Positions 37,952 to 60,288 of a DNA stretch of 64,000 bases are shown here, piece by piece; positions within the stretch are counted from its first letter, which is position 1, and the number at the start of each line of letters is the position of its first letter. The stretch is from an uncultured Candidatus Actinomarina sp. GTDB taxonomy: Bacteria; Actinomycetota; Acidimicrobiia; Actinomarinales; Actinomarinaceae. The position numbers and the translations under genes are program-made. The DNA lies in assembly GCA_902619825.1 (NCBI GenBank), contig CACNFT010000004.1, positions 62,001 through 126,000 of the forward strand. Reading direction: 5' to 3'. The notes under the pieces were generated by a model. The model did no database searches, was not told the origin of the DNA, and saw only the letters and a program-made list of their open reading frames with translations.

Positions 37952-39024
37952 TACGGAATTACACCTTCCTCTTTTGCTTTATTTTTCATATTAATAAAGT
38001 CTGTATAGTCATTTGTAAATGACATTTTTCCATTTTTATCTGTTAGTAAGTAGTATATAAAATCAGTCTCTGGTGTATCAAATACAGCAATTAATGATCG
38101 CTCACCAAATCCAGATATAGGAGTAGGTGGTAAACCAGTATATTTATATGAGTTATATGGTGATTCTACTTGTAAATCGATTAGTAGTACTTGAGATTTA
38201 CGCTCTTGCAGAGCATATAGTATCATCGCATCAATTTGAAGTAACATATCATCATACAATCGGTTTTTTATAACAGACGAAACAAGTGGTCTGTCTTCTT
38301 CTAGTTTCGATTCAGCTTCAACAAGACTAGCAACTGCAAAAAGTTCACTCGTAGAATTTATCCAATTAGGTGTTGAATAGGTAACGAGCAATCTATCAAT
38401 TACGGCTTCGAGTTCATTAACTAAAATTTGTAAAATTTCTTCACCAGATGCATCTAAAGCTATTTGATAAGTGTTTGGATATAGAAGACCTTCCCAATTT
38501 TGTAACTTTGAAACATCACCTAAATAAACATATTTACTTTCTACATTTCCAGATAAAAGTGAATTCGTAAGTAGATCTACATCGTAACCAGTTTGAGAAG
38601 AGATAGATTCTATTGTTTCAGTTATCCAAAGTCCTTCCGGAATAGTAATTGTGTAAGTTTTTAATGGTGGTCCCTTTAATAAAATATTACTTATCTCTTC
38701 GAACTCTAACTTATTTGAAATTTCATATTCTCCAGCTCGTAATTTGTCACCAAGATTCTCATTCCTTAGATATATTTCAAAAGCTAATGAAGACGATATA
38801 ATTCCTTCTTGTGCAAGTATTGATGAAATCTGTGCCGCTGAGGCACCTTGTGGAATATTTATTAAAATAATTGATTCTTCTATATCGTCATTATTTGAAA
38901 CCATACTTGCTGTTTGGTTTATTGTTGAAGCAATATTTGAAGCAAAATTAATTGCAATAAATACAGTAAATATTGTAAATACAAGAGATATTACAAGTCG
39001 ATTTTTAAAGTAATAATTAATCAT
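37951..39024 (-). CDS. mltG: Endolytic transglycosylase MltG (YceG-like)
   Basis: TITIPEGLWITETIESIS, LEGLLYPNTYQI-like, ASLVEAESKLEEDRPLVSSVIKNRL, YTGLPPTPISGFG. Confidence 0.92.
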   Translation of the reverse strand: MINYYFKNRLVISLVFTIFTVFIAINFASNIASTINQTASMVSNNDDIEESIILINIPQGASAAQISSILAQEGIISSSLAFEIYLRNENLGDKLRAGEYEISNKLEFEEISNILLKGPPLKTYTITIPEGLWITETIESISSQTGYDVDLLTNSLLSGNVESKYVYLGDVSKLQNWEGLLYPNTYQIALDASGEEILQILVNELEAVIDRLLVTYSTPNWINSTSELFAVASLVEAESKLEEDRPLVSSVIKNRLYDDMLLQIDAMILYALQERKSQVLLIDLQVESPYNSYKYTGLPPTPISGFGERSLIAVFDTPETDFIYYLLTDKNGKMSFTNDYTDFINMKNKAKEEGVIP

Positions 39025-39394
39025 TTTTTAAATGTGAATTTAGTATTTCTAATGCTGCTAAGTCATCATTTCTTACTGTTTTATCATTTGTTAACTTTGA
39101 AGTCATTCGTTCATCAATTTTATGTATTGGAACAGTTGTGATAGATTTTAGATCATTTTCAATAAATTCATCTACCACATTACTCATACGTGTTTGATGA
39201 GAATTTAATCCTATTGGATAACCAATTACAATCTCATCTATTTCGTGATCAATTAATGATTGTTTAATTTCATCTAAAACATCCAAAGATTTATTATCCA
39301 GGACCTTATATGCATAAGCCGAATTTATTGATTGCTTTTTTAATGCAAGACCAACGTAACGTTCACCATAATCTATAGCTATTATGTTTTTCAC
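39017..39394 (-). CDS. ruvX: YqgF/RuvX pre-16S rRNA nuclease
   Basis: IAIDYGERYVGLA, IVIGYPIGLNS, DERMTS, NDDLAALEILNSHL. Confidence 0.92.
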   Translation of the reverse strand: MKNIIAIDYGERYVGLALKKQSINSAYAYKVLDNKSLDVLDEIKQSLIDHEIDEIVIGYPIGLNSHQTRMSNVVDEFIENDLKSITTVPIHKIDERMTSKLTNDKTVRNDDLAALEILNSHLKND

Positions 39395-47586: not shown

Positions 47587-48492
47587 TTATTTATTAATTA
47601 TCCTTGATAAAAATGGAATAGTTACAAATATTGAGCTGTACGTTCCAGATATTATTCCAATAAATAGAGGTAAAGCAAAATCGGTTAGAGTTCCGGATAA
47701 ACCAATTATATTACCGAGAAACAATATAGAAGCTATTGGCACAGCTGAAGTAATTGATGTATTGATACTTCTCATTAAAATCTCATTAAACGTTTTGTTT
47801 AAAGTTTTTATAGATAAATTACTTTCTTTATTCATTCTTTGACTATCTCTTAATTTATCAAAAAGTATCACTGTATCGTAAAGGGAATAACCAAGAATAG
47901 TTAAAAGCGCAATGACTGTAGATGGTGTTATTTCAAAATTCAATAATAAATAAATCGTTGTACAAATTAATAGATCATGAATTAGAGCTATTAAAGCAAC
48001 TATAGAAAACCTAAACTGAAATCTAATTGATATAAGTAAAACTATAAAGGATAAAAATATTACAAGCGCTCGAATTCCCTTAGTTGTAATTTCTTGTCCA
48101 AATGTTGGTCCTACACGTTGGAACTCGATTTCATTACTGTCGACATTAAACTTATTTGCAAGATAATTTAAGAATTCAGATTCTTGGGATTGAGATCCCT
48201 CAACAGCTCTGAATAAAACAGTATCTGAATTTTCATAGGTTTGATATCTTGAAACTTCTAATATGTTGTTGGTAAGTACTTCATCTATGTCAGATTTAGA
48301 ATACTCACTTGTCAATTGATATGTTGTACCACCTGTAAAATCAATTGAGAAATTCAAGTTTAATATACCAATAGCTGCACATATCATCACCGTTAGAAAT
48401 ATTACTATTTCAACAATAAATATTTTTTGAAGCAAGTTTCGTTTATTGTAAAAATCGATATTTGTATTGCCTAAAAATAAGTTTTTAAACAT
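47587..48492 (-). CDS. secF: Protein translocase subunit SecF
   Basis: IDFTGGTTYQL, VGPTFGQEIT, GYSLYDTVILFDKLRD. Confidence 0.95.
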   Translation of the reverse strand: MFKNLFLGNTNIDFYNKRNLLQKIFIVEIVIFLTVMICAAIGILNLNFSIDFTGGTTYQLTSEYSKSDIDEVLTNNILEVSRYQTYENSDTVLFRAVEGSQSQESEFLNYLANKFNVDSNEIEFQRVGPTFGQEITTKGIRALVIFLSFIVLLISIRFQFRFSIVALIALIHDLLICTTIYLLLNFEITPSTVIALLTILGYSLYDTVILFDKLRDSQRMNKESNLSIKTLNKTFNEILMRSINTSITSAVPIASILFLGNIIGLSGTLTDFALPLFIGIISGTYSSIFVTIPFLSRIINK

Positions 48493-49930
48493 TAGTTATA
48501 TCCTTGTTTTTAATTGGAAACAAAAATCTAGTATTGTTAATTCTTGATACAACAATTGGTACAACATTTCTTGTATAAAGACGTGTGAACAATAAATCAA
48601 AAATTGTTGCAATACCAAGTGCTAATGCAAAACCACGTATTGGACCTACAGCTAAAATATAAAGTAAAAAGGCTGCAGACAATGAAACGAAATCAGCTGT
48701 TAATATTGTCTTCCATGATTCATCTACAGCTTTATTAGCTGCGAATTCGAAGGATCTTCCAACTTTAATCTCGTCTTTAAGTTTTTCAAAAGTAACAATA
48801 TAAGAGTCAGCAGCTAAACCAATTGAAACAATAATTCCAGCAATTCCCGCAAGTGTTAATGTAAATCCTTGTAAATTTCCTAAAACTGAAATTACTGAAT
48901 AAAACAACAGCCCAAACATTGATAGACCAAATACGGATATGAAACCTAGAAATCGGTAATAAAGAATGATAATTATTGAAATTATAATTAGACCAATTAA
49001 TCCTGCTTGCAACCCAAGATTTAGTGTGTCCTCTCCTAAACTTGCAGAAACTTTCTGAATGGATGATCTTTCAAAAGATACTGGCAACGCACCATATCTC
49101 AAAATTACAGCAAGATTATTTGCTGATTCCCCTGTATCAGTATTTCCCATCGATATTGCTGCTGTTCCACCTGTTATACCTATATCAGGATTGACATCAA
49201 GAGCTATACCTGGTGCTGATACTATTTCACCGTCTAAGACAATCGCTAGTCGTCTTTTATCACCAGTTTCTCTTGCTAATTGTTTTGTTAAATCTGTAAA
49301 TTTAACAGCTGAAGAGTCTTTAAATTCTAAAGATACTATCCATTCATTCTCAGGGTATGCTGCAATTGCATCTTCAATATCATTACCAGTTAAGACTGCT
49401 GGACCTAGTTTATAAATGACAGGATAACTTGTTGTTATAGATAAAAGATATGACTCAGTATTTGGATCGTCATCTAAAGTAATTCCAATTTCTTCATCAA
49501 CACCAGGTGCTGATACTTTAATAGGATTCTCTGGATCATCGGGATTAGGAAGATATTCAAAAGCAGGTGAATATCCAGTATCAAAAGAGGAAGCTAGTAC
49601 TGGTCTAAATGTCAATAAACCAGTTGCTCCTAGGGCTTCAATTGCGCGTTCTTGATCTGTAACTCCTGGAAGCTGAACTAGTACAGCATTATTCCCACTT
49701 ATAGAAATTTCTGGTTCTTGTACGTCACCAAATGCCTCAATTCTTGTTCTCATTATTTCAACAGACTTTTCTAAAACTTCTGGATCAGTATTTTGATCAG
49801 CTGTAAGTATTACCGAGATTCCACCTTGTAAATCTAAACCAAGTTTTGGTGATAAGGATGATTGATAAACATAAACAAATAAACCAATAGATAGAACTGG
49901 TAGAAAAAGAAATTTAAGGGTTCGTCTCAT
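48485..49930 (-). CDS. secD: Protein translocase subunit SecD
   Basis: LGLDLQGGISVIL, IRTRIEAFGDVQEPEI-like, LTLAGIAGIIVSIGLAADSYIVTFEKLKDE. Confidence 0.95.
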   Translation of the reverse strand: MRRTLKFLFLPVLSIGLFVYVYQSSLSPKLGLDLQGGISVILTADQNTDPEVLEKSVEIMRTRIEAFGDVQEPEISISGNNAVLVQLPGVTDQERAIEALGATGLLTFRPVLASSFDTGYSPAFEYLPNPDDPENPIKVSAPGVDEEIGITLDDDPNTESYLLSITTSYPVIYKLGPAVLTGNDIEDAIAAYPENEWIVSLEFKDSSAVKFTDLTKQLARETGDKRRLAIVLDGEIVSAPGIALDVNPDIGITGGTAAISMGNTDTGESANNLAVILRYGALPVSFERSSIQKVSASLGEDTLNLGLQAGLIGLIIISIIIILYYRFLGFISVFGLSMFGLLFYSVISVLGNLQGFTLTLAGIAGIIVSIGLAADSYIVTFEKLKDEIKVGRSFEFAANKAVDESWKTILTADFVSLSAAFLLYILAVGPIRGFALALGIATIFDLLFTRLYTRNVVPIVVSRINNTRFLFPIKNKDITNV

Positions 49931-50178
49931 GAAATACTGTTAATAAATGAAGTCTTAATTTTTATTTCACCATTTTTGAGAACTAATGTAACTGTATCAT
50001 CACTTATTGATGTTACTCTTCCGTAAATACCTGAATCTGTGATTACATCTTCACCGATTTTTAGGTTTTTTACGAATTCTTTGTGTTTTTTATTTCGTCT
50101 TCGCTGAGGTAAATATAAAACTGCATAAAATACAACAAAAACAAAAACTAAGGGCAATAAAGATACTATGTCACTCAT
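49927..50178 (-). CDS. yajC: YajC preprotein translocase subunit
   Basis: LPQRRRNKKHKEFVKNLKIGEDVITDSGIYGRVTSI. Confidence 0.93.
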   Translation of the reverse strand: MSDIVSLLPLVFVFVVFYAVLYLPQRRRNKKHKEFVKNLKIGEDVITDSGIYGRVTSISDDTVTLVLKNGEIKIKTSFINSIS

Positions 50179-51247
50179 TTATAAATTCCTTTTTAAAACT
50201 ATCAAAACTTGATTTTAATATACTTTCTCTAGCTTCTTCAATAATTTGTTCTGTTTGAATTATATTATGAACAGTTAAATATAACCAAGAAGTTGTATTT
50301 TCATTTGCAAAAAGGTGACGTAAATAAGCTCTTGAATAATTTAAACACGTAAAGCATTTGCAATTAGTATCTATAGGATTTTCATCATTTTTAAATTTTT
50401 GATTTTTTATGTTGATGTATGTATTACGAGTAATTAACTTACCATGTCTTGCGAGTCTTGCAGGCCAAACACAATCAAACATGTCAACACCAGAATCAAT
50501 CAAATCAATTAAACCTATGGTGTCACCTAAGCCCATAACATATCTTGGCTTTCCTATTGGAAGTATTGAATTTAAATGATCTACGACCTTTTTTCTTTCA
50601 GTACTTGTTTCACCGATTGCTAATCCACCAATTGCATATCCATCAAATTCTAATTCAATCATTGATTTTGCTGAAGTTTCTCTTAAATCAAGATTTAAAC
50701 CTCCTTGAACTATGCCAAACAGTTCTTGTTTATTGTTTTTATGTACACTTTTTGCTTTTTCAGCCCACTGACTTGTAATTTCTATTGCTTTCATTTGATC
50801 TTCATCTGATCTGTCATAATCAATTAAATAATCAAAAATCATTGCAATATCACTGCCTAAAAGATTTTGTGTGTTGACTGATTCTTCAGGAGTCATTTTA
50901 AAAAAGGAACCATCATATACATTTTTAAATTCAATACCATCATTTAATAATTTGGTTGGTAATGACCAAGCTTGAAAACCTCCAGAGTCAGTAAGTATTA
51001 ATTTATCCCAATTCATAAATTTATGTAATCCACCTAAATCATTTATTAACTGTGCTCCTGGTCTTAGATGTAGATGGTATGCATTTGCTAGAAGTATTGA
51101 GGTCTTATCTAGATACTGATGAGGTGTAGATTTAATTGCACCTCTTGTAGCAACAGGCATAAATGTGGGAGTCTGTACTTCAATATTATTTATAGACAAT
51201 AACCCAGCTCGAGCATTTTTATCATTTGAAATTAATTTATATGCCAT
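50171..51247 (-). CDS. tgt: Queuine tRNA-ribosyltransferase
   Basis: ILTDSGGFQAWSL, FDCVWPARLARHG, zinc site CKCFTCLNYSRAYLRHL. Confidence 0.94.
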   Translation of the reverse strand: MAYKLISNDKNARAGLLSINNIEVQTPTFMPVATRGAIKSTPHQYLDKTSILLANAYHLHLRPGAQLINDLGGLHKFMNWDKLILTDSGGFQAWSLPTKLLNDGIEFKNVYDGSFFKMTPEESVNTQNLLGSDIAMIFDYLIDYDRSDEDQMKAIEITSQWAEKAKSVHKNNKQELFGIVQGGLNLDLRETSAKSMIELEFDGYAIGGLAIGETSTERKKVVDHLNSILPIGKPRYVMGLGDTIGLIDLIDSGVDMFDCVWPARLARHGKLITRNTYINIKNQKFKNDENPIDTNCKCFTCLNYSRAYLRHLFANENTTSWLYLTVHNIIQTEQIIEEARESILKSSFDSFKKEFINE

Positions 51248-52247
51248 CGTTTTTTATTTTAAACATTACTGCATCACCAAAACTTAGGAACTTCATATTA
51301 TTTTCTAAGGCAAAAGCATAAAGTTTTTTCCAGGAATCGCCATAAATAGCTTGAACAATTGAAAGTAGAGAACTCTTAGGAGCATGAAAATTTGTTATTA
51401 GATAGTCAGCAACATTAAATTTGAATCCTTTTGTTATAAACAAATTTGTATTTCCTTTAAAAGTAGAAGTATTATTTACATGCTCTAAAGTTCTTAATGT
51501 TGTTGTACCAACACAAACAATATTATATCCGTTCTTTTTTTTCGCAATTATTTCATGGTAAGTTGCTTCATTAATCTCATAATCTTCAGAATGTATATCA
51601 TAATCTTCTACGTATTCAGTACTGATAGGTTTGAACGTACCGAGACCAATATCAAGATTAAGGAATCTTATATTAATATCCTTTTTTTCAAGCTGTTGAA
51701 ATAAATTTGGAGTGAAATGAAGAGCAGCTGTAGATGCAGCCAATGAAAATCCATTCTTACTAAAAAAAGTTTTGTAGTGTTCATATTTATAATCCAAATC
51801 ATCAATGTAAGGTGGCAAAGGAGTTGATCCATAATTATTGATTATTTGTTCTAACGGTAAAGAAAATTTTATTCTAAATCCATCGGTTACATTTTTGATA
51901 ATATTTATTGAGAAATTTTCAAGTTCAATTTCTTCTCCAATTTTCTTTTTTCCATTAAATTTAAGTAAACAATCTGCTGAATATTCATCAACTATCTTAA
52001 GTATGAATATTTCTACGTTTCCATTAGTATGTTTTTTAATTGTCTTAACTCTTACATCTATAACTTGAGAATTATTAAAGACCAGCAATGATCGGTTTGG
52101 AATCACATTATCTATATTTTCAAATTTATGAATTATCATACTTTCAGCATCAAGAATTTTTGAATCTTCTGGATTTTGGTATGGATCTTGAGCTATCGAA
52201 GATTTTGGTAGATGATAATCTAAATCAGAAATATGGGTTTTGTTCAA
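51237..52247 (-). CDS. queA: S-adenosylmethionine:tRNA ribosyltransferase-isomerase
   Basis: LDYHLPKSSIAQDP, LPPYI, AASTAALHFT, VGTTTLRTLE, TNFHAPKSSLL. Confidence 0.94.
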   Translation of the reverse strand: MNKTHISDLDYHLPKSSIAQDPYQNPEDSKILDAESMIIHKFENIDNVIPNRSLLVFNNSQVIDVRVKTIKKHTNGNVEIFILKIVDEYSADCLLKFNGKKKIGEEIELENFSINIIKNVTDGFRIKFSLPLEQIINNYGSTPLPPYIDDLDYKYEHYKTFFSKNGFSLAASTAALHFTPNLFQQLEKKDINIRFLNLDIGLGTFKPISTEYVEDYDIHSEDYEINEATYHEIIAKKKNGYNIVCVGTTTLRTLEHVNNTSTFKGNTNLFITKGFKFNVADYLITNFHAPKSSLLSIVQAIYGDSWKKLYAFALENNMKFLSFGDAVMFKIKNDGI

Positions 52248-52601
52248 TTACTTGTTTAAAAGCTTAATAAAAAGTTCATATGACATTGACACAACTTCAG
52301 GCATTCCATCATTTGTTCTTCTCTTGTTGTCACCCTGTCTCTTAAGTTTTTTCCAAAATAACACAGTATTTTCATCGCTTGACTTTTCAATTGCTTTACC
52401 AAGTGATTGATGTAAATTTAGATTTTGTCGAGATTTTGCTTCAATAAAATACTCTTCTCCGTCAACAAACAATTGTATGTCACCCAAATCATTAGAACCA
52501 CCTTCAGCGAAACGTTGAGCTTTCATATTTGAATTTTCGTTCAGTCTTTTTACGATATTTGATTCGTATGTAGTTCCCTGTTTTTTAGCTTTATTAACCA
52601 C
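52248..52601 (-). CDS. PDDEXK nuclease-like protein, Hjc/Holliday-junction-resolvase-like
   Basis: GTTYESNIVKRLNE...KAQRFAEGGSNDLGDIQLFVDGEEYFIEAKSRQN: KG-E...R..G...DI...EAK core. Confidence 0.6.
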   Translation of the reverse strand: MVNKAKKQGTTYESNIVKRLNENSNMKAQRFAEGGSNDLGDIQLFVDGEEYFIEAKSRQNLNLHQSLGKAIEKSSDENTVLFWKKLKRQGDNKRRTNDGMPEVVSMSYELFIKLLNK

Positions 52602-52620: not shown

Positions 52621-53364
52621 TTATTCTGTTATTGCTTTTTCTAATAGTTTGTTATCAATGTCAAAATTTGCATATACGTTTTGAACATCATCTAATTCTT
52701 CTAATGCTTCTATCAACTTCGACAATCTGTTAAATTTTTCAATGTCTAAATTGACAGAGCTGGATGGTAAATAAGCAACCTCCGAATTTACTAAGTTAAA
52801 ACCTGAATTTCTAAATAATTGATCTACTTTCTGAAATTCAGAAGGTTGGAATTCAAATGTGACACCCGTTTCATTTTCTTGAATATCTATACAATTATTT
52901 TCTATTGCAAGATCTATTATCTCTTCTTTATATTCATCAAATTGAAATATTGCTTTCCTTGAAAATAAGTAATTAACACTTCCAGGAGAACCGGTATTCC
53001 CTTCATATTTATTAAAAGTTGCTTTTACATCTGATGAAGTTCTATTTCTATTGTCAGTGACGCATTCAACTAATATTGCAACACCATTTGGTCCGTAACC
53101 TTCATATGTAATCTCATCAAATGATTCTGTTGATGAATCACCTGACATTCTCTTTAATGCATTGTCAATATTTGAATTGGGTACTGAGTTTGATTTGGCT
53201 TTACTAATCGCTTGATAAAGTGCAGCATTATTATTTGGATCAGCACCACCATTCTTGGCTGCAACTTCGATACCCCTAATTAGTTTGGCAAATAATTTTC
53301 CTCTTTTAGCATCATTGGCACCTTTTTTTCTTTTTATCGTTGACCACTTAGAGTGACCTGACAT
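52621..53364 (-). CDS. YebC/PmpR family protein
   Basis: [40 protein letters not shown]. Confidence 0.97.
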   Translation of the reverse strand: MSGHSKWSTIKRKKGANDAKRGKLFAKLIRGIEVAAKNGGADPNNNAALYQAISKAKSNSVPNSNIDNALKRMSGDSSTESFDEITYEGYGPNGVAILVECVTDNRNRTSSDVKATFNKYEGNTGSPGSVNYLFSRKAIFQFDEYKEEIIDLAIENNCIDIQENETGVTFEFQPSEFQKVDQLFRNSGFNLVNSEVAYLPSSSVNLDIEKFNRLSKLIEALEELDDVQNVYANFDIDNKLLEKAITE

Positions 53365-53932
53365 TTACACCGTCCTTAAGGAAACTACTTAACCAATCTA
53401 AATAAACTTTATCATTGGTTAATTCTGGATGAAAAGATAGACCGACAATATTATTTTCTATTACACCGACAACTTCATTATCAATTGTTGCTATTGGTGT
53501 TACTGAATCTTCGTAAGAGAGAATTTTGGGAGCTCTTATGAAACAATACATTTCTTTATTACCTAGTAAGTTAACGAGTCCCTCAAATGATTGATTTTGA
53601 CGACCGTATGCATTTCTTTCAACTACTGTATTTAAAACTCCCAATGATGTTTCACCATCAATCACGTCTTTTGCTAATAGAATTAAACCAGCACATGTTC
53701 CTAATGTCGGAATTCCACTTTCTATTAATTTTTTTATTGCAGAAAATAAATCATTATTTTCTTGAATTTTTATCATAGATGTAGATTCTCCGCCTGGAAG
53801 AATTAAGGAATTAACACTAGATAAATCCGTAGTATCTTTAATTAAAACATAATCTTGATCTATAAATTCTAAAGATTGTACATGATTGTAAAAGGAACCT
53901 TGAAGTGCTAAAACGCCAGTTTTCATTACCAA
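53348..53932 (-). CDS. pdxT: Pyridoxal 5'-phosphate synthase glutaminase subunit PdxT
   Basis: [40 protein letters not shown]. Confidence 0.95.
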
Positions 53933-54810
53933 CCTCTTTTAGCTAATTTCTCCGCTTCATCTAAATCATCTATATTTATCCCTACCATTGGTTCACCAAG
54001 GTTTTTAGAAACCTCTATAAGTTTTTCTGGATCATTGTAGTTTGTTGTTGCAATTACAATTGCTTCTGCTCTTTCTTTTGGATCACCGCTTTTAAATATT
54101 CCCGATCCAACAAATACACCATCACAGCCGAGTTGCATCATCAATGCTGCATCAGCAGGTGTTGCTATACCTCCAGCAGCAAAATTAACTACTGGCAATT
54201 TACCAAGCTCATGAATCTCTTTAACGACATCAAATGGTGCTCTTATTTCTTTTGCCAGTGACATCAATTCATTTTGATCAGATGTTTTAATTTTATTAAT
54301 ACCATCAGTCATACTTCTCATATGCTTTACAGCTTCAATAACGTTCCCAGTGCCAGCTTCACCTTTAGTTCGAATCATAGCTGCACCCTCACCAATTCGT
54401 CTGCATGCTTCACCTATGTCAGTTGCACCATTAACAAATGGAGTCTTTATATCATGTTTATAGATATGATTTTTATCATCAGCTGGTGTTAAAACTTCAC
54501 TTTCATCAATAAAGTCAATGCCTAAGGATTCTAACATTTGCGCTTCAACAAAATGACCAATACGAGCTTTTGCCATAACTGGTATTGACACTGAATCTAT
54601 CACTTCTTGAATTGTCTCAACTGATGACATTCTTGCAACACCACCTTCTGCACGAATATCAGCGGGAATTCTCTCTAATGCCATAACAGCAACTGCACCA
54701 GATTTTTCGGCTATAACAGCTTGTTCTGCATTGACGACGTCCATTATTACGCCACCTTTTAACATTTCAGCTAAACCCTTTTTAATTTTAAAAGTTGATT
54801 CAATTTTCAT
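53926..54810 (-). CDS. pdxS: Pyridoxal 5'-phosphate synthase PdxS
   Basis: [42 protein letters not shown]. Confidence 0.98.
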
Positions 54811-56667: not shown

Positions 56668-57233
56668 TTAAGATTCTTATATAGAATATTAAATCTTTGA
56701 TAAACAGTAAGCCACAATATAAATGTGAAGATATAAATACTATAAAAAGGCAATTCGAAAAGCATATATATTACAGCAAAAATTACTCGTTCTGGACGAG
56801 CAGCTACACCAACTTTGTTATCTATACCCAACAACTCACCACGAGCTCGTAAATATGGAACTAAATTTGATCCAGTAACGATTGATAATAGAACAAACAA
56901 TTCAAAATCTGTTGAAGTAAACCTAATTGCAACTACGCTCCATATAAAAAGTTCACCAACTCTGTCAATAAATGAATCAAGTAAAGCCCCTTTTCTTGAA
57001 ATCATATTGGTTGTTCTTGCTAAAGGTCCATCTAATCCATCGATTGCGCTACCAATAAAAATTGTTAAGGCACCTATTGTTTTAGTGTCATTTAAAAACA
57101 AATAACATCCAATAATTACTATCAATAACCCTAAAAAAGAAAGAACATTTGGCTTAATACCAAGCTTTATACAAATATTAATAAATGGAACAGCAAATTT
57201 TTCAGAAGCAGATTTAAAATACTTTTCAAGCAT
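56664..57233 (-). CDS. CDP-alcohol phosphatidyltransferase (PI/PIP synthase-like)
   Basis: GSAIDGLDGPLARTTNMISRKGALLDSFIDRVGE motif; adjacent to PimA/PatA-like genes. Confidence 0.85.
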   Translation of the reverse strand: MLEKYFKSASEKFAVPFINICIKLGIKPNVLSFLGLLIVIIGCYLFLNDTKTIGALTIFIGSAIDGLDGPLARTTNMISRKGALLDSFIDRVGELFIWSVVAIRFTSTDFELFVLLSIVTGSNLVPYLRARGELLGIDNKVGVAARPERVIFAVIYMLFELPFYSIYIFTFILWLTVYQRFNILYKNLK

Positions 57234-57717
57234 TAATTATTTCTTCAGTAAATATATCACCTATAAGAACAAGATTGAAAGCATCAATTTCTAAGATAGT
57301 TTTTAAAGATGGTGGATTTTTATGATCATATACAATAACTGTCCAAACTGGATTTAAGAGTCTTAATTTGAATTTGAATTGAAATGTTAAAGCTATGGAG
57401 TAATACCCTATTGAGTGATTGATTTTATCTGTTAAAAATTCAAGAATTTCATTCTGATTTAAAGAGATTTTGTTATCAATAGCATATATAAAAATACTTG
57501 TTATTCCTAAAATTATTGATGATGGTAATAAATTACCTAATTCTAAGGTAAAGTTTAAACCTAACGCAATTAGGGATGATAATAAAACTAAATGGGCAAA
57601 TCTTCTTCTTCTAATAGGATTTGGAATAACATAGCTTCCTACAGCCAAAGAGTTTAAATCATCTGGTACGTTTTCTTTCTGTACGTCCTCTTCATTGATG
57701 TTTATTCCTTCAGCCAT
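57226..57717 (-). CDS. Uncharacterised membrane protein
   Basis: Two central hydrophobic segments; ORF tightly packed between thrS and the phosphatidyltransferase. Confidence 0.6.
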   Translation of the reverse strand: MAEGININEEDVQKENVPDDLNSLAVGSYVIPNPIRRRRFAHLVLLSSLIALGLNFTLELGNLLPSSIILGITSIFIYAIDNKISLNQNEILEFLTDKINHSIGYYSIALTFQFKFKLRLLNPVWTVIVYDHKNPPSLKTILEIDAFNLVLIGDIFTEEIINA

Positions 57718-59721: not shown

Positions 59722-60288
59722 ATGAGTAAAACTACAGAAATATATCTCAAAAAAAACAAAATTGTAGTTAGTCATAAATCTATAATAAAAAATCAAATTG
59801 TACATCTTGAATTTATACCAATAAACAAATACCAACTTATATGTAATAAAATTACAATTGAAAATAAATCAAAGATTATAAATATAAACTCAACTGATTT
59901 TAGAAAAATTAATATTCACAACTTAGTAAAAACAAGTATTAGGTTGATTGATAAAAATATTGAATTAGATAGAAAAACTTATAATAGAAATTCCCCAATA
60001 TATAACCCGCGAATAGACTCTAAAGATTTAATAAAAAGAATAAATAAAAAAAATTATAGCAATAGGTCTGAACTCCTATCTATGTACTCTTTGTTATACA
60101 TAAATACGGAAAGAGAATATGGTGAAAACATATCAAGAAAATTAAGTGAGAAAATTAAATATAAAGAGTCTTACTTAAAAAACTTAACTAAAGAATGTTT
60201 TACTAAAGGTTACCTTACAAATTCCATTAAAGGTGTTGCAGGTGGTAATCTGACTGATAAATCGTTAAAATTTCTTAATTCTCTTTAA
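59722..60288 (+). CDS. Uncharacterised protein, possible C-terminal winged-helix-like segment
   Basis: 188 aa ORF with its own ATG; C-terminal YLKNLTKECFTKGYLTNSIKGVAGGNLTDKSLKFLNSL. Confidence 0.5.
   Translation: MSKTTEIYLKKNKIVVSHKSIIKNQIVHLEFIPINKYQLICNKITIENKSKIININSTDFRKINIHNLVKTSIRLIDKNIELDRKTYNRNSPIYNPRIDSKDLIKRINKKNYSNRSELLSMYSLLYINTEREYGENISRKLSEKIKYKESYLKNLTKECFTKGYLTNSIKGVAGGNLTDKSLKFLNSL

Follow-up and report, generated by a model that had tools for sequence, protein, structure and literature searches.

Candidatus Actinomarina, an abundant free-living marine clade, has lost RuvA, RuvB and RuvC, and a nuclease gene of a phage family stands at the site of the operon. On balance, we think it probable that this is a free-living genus which natively does without the whole RuvABC resolvasome and carries out late homologous recombination with a phage-style, Hjc-like nuclease, encoded at the lost operon's site, together with RecG. 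If true, the genus would provide a natural counterpart to the RusA and RecG bypass known from Escherichia coli genetics, and would make a question from those genetics testable in nature, namely whether a resolvase and RecG are enough in the absence of RuvAB.

The window, by which we mean the whole 64-kb stretch of DNA analysed, is part of a draft genome of 1,080,982 bases in 13 contigs, 90.6% complete. Its named relatives assign it to Candidatus Actinomarina/OCS155 in the class Acidimicrobiia, a streamlined marine clade of tiny, free-living ocean bacteria.

Loss of RuvABC and the gene in its place

The gene under study encodes a protein of 117 residues. Its coding-strand neighbourhood reads pdxS-pdxT-yebC-[117-aa ORF]-queA-tgt-yajC-secD-secF (Table 1), and both the ORF call and the naming of the neighbours with Pfam and NCBIfam bear out the original prediction that a single small ORF separates yebC from queA-tgt-yajC-secDF. 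Only 19 bases lie between the yebC stop and the start of the ORF, while the TTG start of queA follows directly on its stop codon, so that the three genes probably form a single operon and are probably co-transcribed. Elsewhere in the window, a 188-residue ORF at 59722-60288 (+) is encoded on the other strand from its neighbours and has no NCBIfam match, and a 163-residue ORF at 57226-57717 (-), downstream of a threonyl-tRNA-synthetase-like gene, matches nothing in Pfam or NCBIfam.

Table 1. Features of the nuclease locus and of yqgF, in window coordinates
Feature	Position	Strand	Remarks
Hjc-like PD-(D/E)XK nuclease gene, proposed Holliday-junction resolvase	52248..52601	-	117 aa, GTG start, TAA stop
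E13 codon, motif I (G-x3-E)	52563..52565	-	Invariant in 36/36 covering genus homologues and 69/69 rows of the family alignment
D41 codon, motif II (GD)	52479..52481	-	Invariant in 37/37 genus homologues; at least 90% of the 69-row family alignment
E54 codon, motif III (E-A-K)	52440..52442	-	Genus-invariant; Q in some phage relatives
K56 codon, motif III lysine	52434..52436	-	Invariant in 69/69 rows of the family alignment
yebC, upstream neighbour	52621..53364	-	Pfam/NCBIfam; precedes ruvC in most class relatives
queA, downstream neighbour	51237..52247	-	Pfam/NCBIfam; follows ruvB in most class relatives
tgt, conserved flank	50171..51247	-	Pfam; locus comparison
yajC, conserved flank	49927..50178	-	Locus comparison
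secD, conserved flank	48485..49930	-	Locus comparison
secF, after secD	47587..48492	-	Named from sequence alone
pdxT, conserved flank	53348..53932	-	Pfam; locus comparison
pdxS, conserved flank	53926..54810	-	Pfam; locus comparison
YqgF/RuvX, at the alaS-yqgF-mltG place	39017..39394	-	Only other resolvase-named nuclease found in the window's genome

Comparison with 17 relatives from the class shows what formerly occupied this position. There, the ruvC-ruvA-ruvB block lies within a pdxS-pdxT-yebC-ruvC-ruvA-ruvB-queA-tgt-yajC-secD neighbourhood, with some variation: queA/tgt or yajC are missing from the site in some, others have extra DNA between yebC and ruvC, and in one (G043) the stretch is without yebC or the pdx genes. 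In each of the 35 named Actinomarina loci, yebC and queA enclose the nuclease ORF and the flanks are the same, the outer flanking genes being cut off in some by short contigs. The nuclease ORF thus occupies the former ruvCAB place in the genus. In another genome (G021:C47, UBA1281, L079) yebC is matched in separate parts, residues 1-85 and residues 117-247, with about 400 bases between them, so that the gene has either taken an insertion or been misassembled.

Family searches for the missing genes give a consistent picture across the genus. RuvC is found in none of 42 Actinomarina genomes but in 76 of 77 other members of the class; genuine RuvB, scoring at least 126 bits, in none of the 42 but in 75 of the 77; and RuvA in none of 35, compared with 23 of 24 class relatives. 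The best matches to RuvB_N within the genus reach no more than 41 bits, and the one examined proved to be DnaX, the gamma/tau subunit of DNA polymerase III, rather than RuvB. No ruvC, ruvA or ruvB was found by family in the window's own genome, at its 90.6% completeness. The absence of all three genes, noticed originally at this locus, therefore extends to every genus genome searched. The original proposal of a non-orthologous replacement of RuvC is supported but was too narrow, since RuvA and RuvB have gone as well.

Since all genomes of the genus are incomplete drafts, with a mean completeness of about 80%, the absence of ruvCAB could in principle stem from a gap in assembly or binning, with the nuclease ORF simply an added gene. 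This reading is already contradicted and we give it practically no credence. Many of the genomes are from single cells and contigs run unbroken across the locus; ruvC, ruvA and ruvB are missing everywhere, yet RecA, RecG and yebC are recovered as would be expected. Based on completeness, and if gaps are independent, the chance of a universal gene being missed in all 42 genomes is around 1e-31. Loss of RuvABC across the clade is thus clear.

The nuclease gene itself is present in 37 of the 42 genomes, where about 33.5 would be expected from completeness were it universal. Three of the five genomes without it also lack yebC, so that in these the whole locus is absent from the assembly. Its dN/dS of 0.034 is the second lowest of seven genes in the neighbourhood, the others being pdxS (0.020), secD (0.039), yebC (0.044), tgt (0.091), queA (0.160) and pdxT (0.199). 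The gene is under strong purifying selection and behaves like a housekeeping gene.

An Hjc-like nuclease of PHROG 244

The 117-residue protein matches PHROG 244 with an e-value of 1e-11, residues 1-116 aligning with positions 4-111 of the 186 in the profile, and the same family is matched by all 16 rows of an alignment that includes phage relatives (A3). Among the 36-37 genus homologues covering each position, K6, G9, E13, R30, D38, G40, D41, E54, K56 and K87 are invariant; in a broader family alignment of 69 rows (A8), G9, E13 and K56 show no variation at all. The three motifs listed for the Hjc/Mrr group (PMC8805305) are present as G9-x3-E13, GD41 and E54-A-K56, the spacing in motif I being x(3) here and x(4) in that work. 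Their placement is that of archaeal-type Hjc: G9-T-T-Y-E13 falls in the helix 4-21, D41 just before the strand 42-46, and E54-A-K56 within the strand 49-58. The likeness of the E/R/GD/EAK core to Hjc, noticed originally in the bare sequence, has thus held up and, given the PHROG 244 match and the residues invariant in the genus, the motifs are not a chance occurrence. At position 54, the glutamate of Actinomarina and many other sequences is replaced by glutamine (QAK/QCK) in phage relatives L105, L107, L109, L111 and L113.

A profile built from the 69 relatives connects the family with solved structures of Hjc, matching the Sulfolobus solfataricus enzyme at e-values from 3.9e-7 (1hh1) to 7e-7, ST1444 at 2.6e-5 and Hjc_15-6 of a Thermus phage at 0.0018. 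The connection requires a profile made with the phage relatives, as the single sequence matches solved Hjc at only 0.6. Nor is it evident from Pfam. The protein has no match to the Hjc entry (PF01870) at E<=1, and none by HMM to RusA (PF05866), leaving the PHROG name 'RusA-like' unsupported by Pfam, or to RecU (PF03838); direct HMM matching does not make it a member of RuvC (PF02075). A match to PDDEXK_15 (PF24608), a putative phage endonuclease family, reaches 22.9 bits (E=9e-5), below the gathering cut-off of 27 bits. Because Pfam yields no direct match to Hjc, RusA, RecU or RuvC, the careful name for the protein is 'Hjc-like PD-(D/E)XK nuclease of PHROG 244'.

Structure prediction leads to the same family. 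An AlphaFold2 model made from the 69-row alignment (pLDDT 87.1, pTM 0.80) has as its best Foldseek matches in the PDB the Hjc enzymes of Pyrococcus furiosus, S. solfataricus and A. fulgidus (1gef, 4tkd, 1ob9, 2wcz), at probabilities of 0.98-1.00 but with e-values of about 0.003-0.008 (best 0.0026) and TM scores of 0.38-0.51; model and matches together place the protein in the Hjc fold. Its matches among viral structures include phage Holliday junction resolvases. The model supersedes a first one, made from nearly identical sequences, which had a pLDDT of 62 and a weak first match to Hjc. The protein could have fallen into an unrelated family and did not: profile and model point to Hjc, and PHROG 244 to phage resolvases. 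The predicted Hjc-type likeness nevertheless needs one amendment, in that the closest relatives are actinophage proteins and not archaeal Hjc.

Hjc and Mrr belong to the same superfamily, and the nuclease might instead be an Mrr-like, restriction-like or general branched-DNA enzyme, serving defence or DNA clearing rather than recombination. Two phage relatives match Mrr_cat weakly, and the restriction enzymes SwaI and HincII are among the PDB matches of the model. The best structural matches are nonetheless to Hjc, and the protein is a single domain with no recognition domain. We weighed a role in defence and discarded it, there being no PADLOC match; the conserved locus is also without a methylase partner, and, in contrast to genes for defence, this one is fixed at the ruvCAB position throughout the genus. 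We consider this explanation very unlikely, and favour junction cutting as the probable function of the nuclease in Actinomarina, as family and motifs suggest.

Relationship to actinophage proteins

Outside the genus, relatives of the nuclease belong to prophages or to the replication modules of actinophages. The prophage-like copy carried by one genome (G055) has relatives in 265 actinophage records, and most of the phage relatives examined adjoin genes for a helicase (DnaB), primase/helicase, polymerase, SSB or RecE/RecT. Sampling of 397 genomes from the phylum gave, besides the window's genome, a single match (G456), beside an ORF judged by eye to be a phage-type primase-helicase. In a midpoint-rooted tree, all genus sequences group in a single clade with support 100, nested as drawn among those of phages, on a long branch of 2.4 changes per site that makes its placement there uncertain. 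Transfer from phage to host is the likely direction. No close phage donor was found: scanning viral contigs with the single protein gave no relative, and the genus profile found only one distant virus there (L053). A plasmid search produced no match. The mixed phage alignment contains no stretch conserved enough for scanning.

The PHROG 244 proteins of actinophages annotated as 'Holliday junction resolvase', such as gp84 of Mycobacterium phage NelitzaMV and gp85 of Gordonia phage Asapag, are of equal length to the Actinomarina protein and share its core, with K6, G9, E13, D38, G40, D41 and K56 invariant in the 16-row alignment and an HMM match over the full length. Identity, however, is 20-32%. 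The Actinomarina protein has some five additional residues between the final two strands and lacks the Trp that follows motif III in most phage relatives, and its gene lies at a chromosomal housekeeping position rather than in a phage replication module.

Junction processing with RecG and comparison with known systems

The window's genome contains RecA and also RecG, the latter at 679 bits against a curated cut-off of 659. RecU was found in none of 59 genomes searched, so that the search proposed originally for these two proteins finds RecG kept and RecU absent. RusA is likewise absent from the genomes searched, one broken match excepted: at G012:C58:3007-3321 a match to the RusA family is interrupted by a single in-frame TGA, and the genome itself has 5% contamination.

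In E. coli, RusA efficiently replaces RuvABC when RecG is present, and viability requires a resolvase rather than migration by RuvAB (PMC5055574). It is likely, in our judgement, that RuvABC was displaced at its own locus in Actinomarina by an Hjc-like resolvase from a phage family, and that this resolvase acts together with RecG, as RusA is able to do in E. coli. A gene for a PHROG 244-type resolvase, of the kind found in actinophage replication modules, would have entered the chromosome of the ancestor of Ca. Actinomarina and replaced ruvC-ruvA-ruvB within the yebC-ruvCAB-queA-tgt operon; the same ancestor would have given up branch migration by RuvAB. Joint molecules made by RecA, along with reversed forks, would give rise to four-way junctions, and RecG would be the likely translocase moving junctions and forks for the nuclease. 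The latter may be pictured as a PD-(D/E)XK endonuclease of small size, dependent on Mg and probably dimeric, making paired cuts in Holliday junctions that a ligase would seal. We infer alike the cleavage of four-way junctions, the dimerisation, the partnership with RecG and the phage donor.

Alternatively, after the loss of RuvABC, the junction job may have passed to YqgF (RuvX) or to RecG alone, the PD-(D/E)XK protein being an unrelated, gap-filling nuclease. YqgF is present in the window's genome and carries 'resolvase' names; Rocha et al. proposed it as possible cover in genomes lacking RuvC and RecU, although its resolvase activity had not been demonstrated (PMC1193525). It occurs, however, in every one of the 24 class relatives examined for it, RuvABC being present in 23 of these, and is therefore no specific substitute. 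It also scores lower in Actinomarina (68-89 bits) than in class relatives (100-150 bits), while the 117-residue nuclease is both matched by family to resolvases and strongly conserved. We hold this alternative to be unlikely. The window's YqgF scores 35.4 bits, under the NCBIfam cut-off of 43.25, which together with the scores below those of class relatives marks the protein as unusually diverged in the genus.

Several known systems resemble in part the proposed displacement of RuvABC by an Hjc-like nuclease. Archaeal Hjc (S. solfataricus 1hh1, P. furiosus 1gef) has the same order of catalytic motifs, fold and size and, by inference, the role of RuvC; the sequence alignment with it, however, covers only the N-terminal two thirds, there is no direct PF01870 match and the Actinomarina host is bacterial. 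Hjc_15-6 of Thermus phage Tth15-6 (7bgs/7bnx) is a phage enzyme of Hjc type for which junction cleavage has been demonstrated (PMC8805305), but it is phage-borne, has 163 residues and bears E-SD-EVK motifs where the Actinomarina protein has E-GD-EAK. RecU of Firmicutes and Mollicutes is also a non-orthologous nuclease in place of RuvC. Unlike the Actinomarina protein, it replaces RuvC only, in genomes that retain RuvAB, with recU mostly located elsewhere (PMC3403352, PMC1193525). RusA, from an E. coli prophage, is similarly phage-derived and substitutes for RuvABC given RecG (PMC5055574); it belongs to another Pfam family and is normally silent in E. coli, whereas the Actinomarina gene is fixed and constrained.

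RuvA and RuvB have been reported in all but under 2% of sequenced bacteria, the exceptions being mostly parasites (PMC3403352). No earlier report linking Actinomarina with the Holliday junction was found in a literature search that was thin on subscription journals, and a genome paper on the order makes no mention of ruv or resolvases. The system is likely to be in use, since homologous recombination is said to maintain the cohesion of Actinomarina species (PMC7771536).
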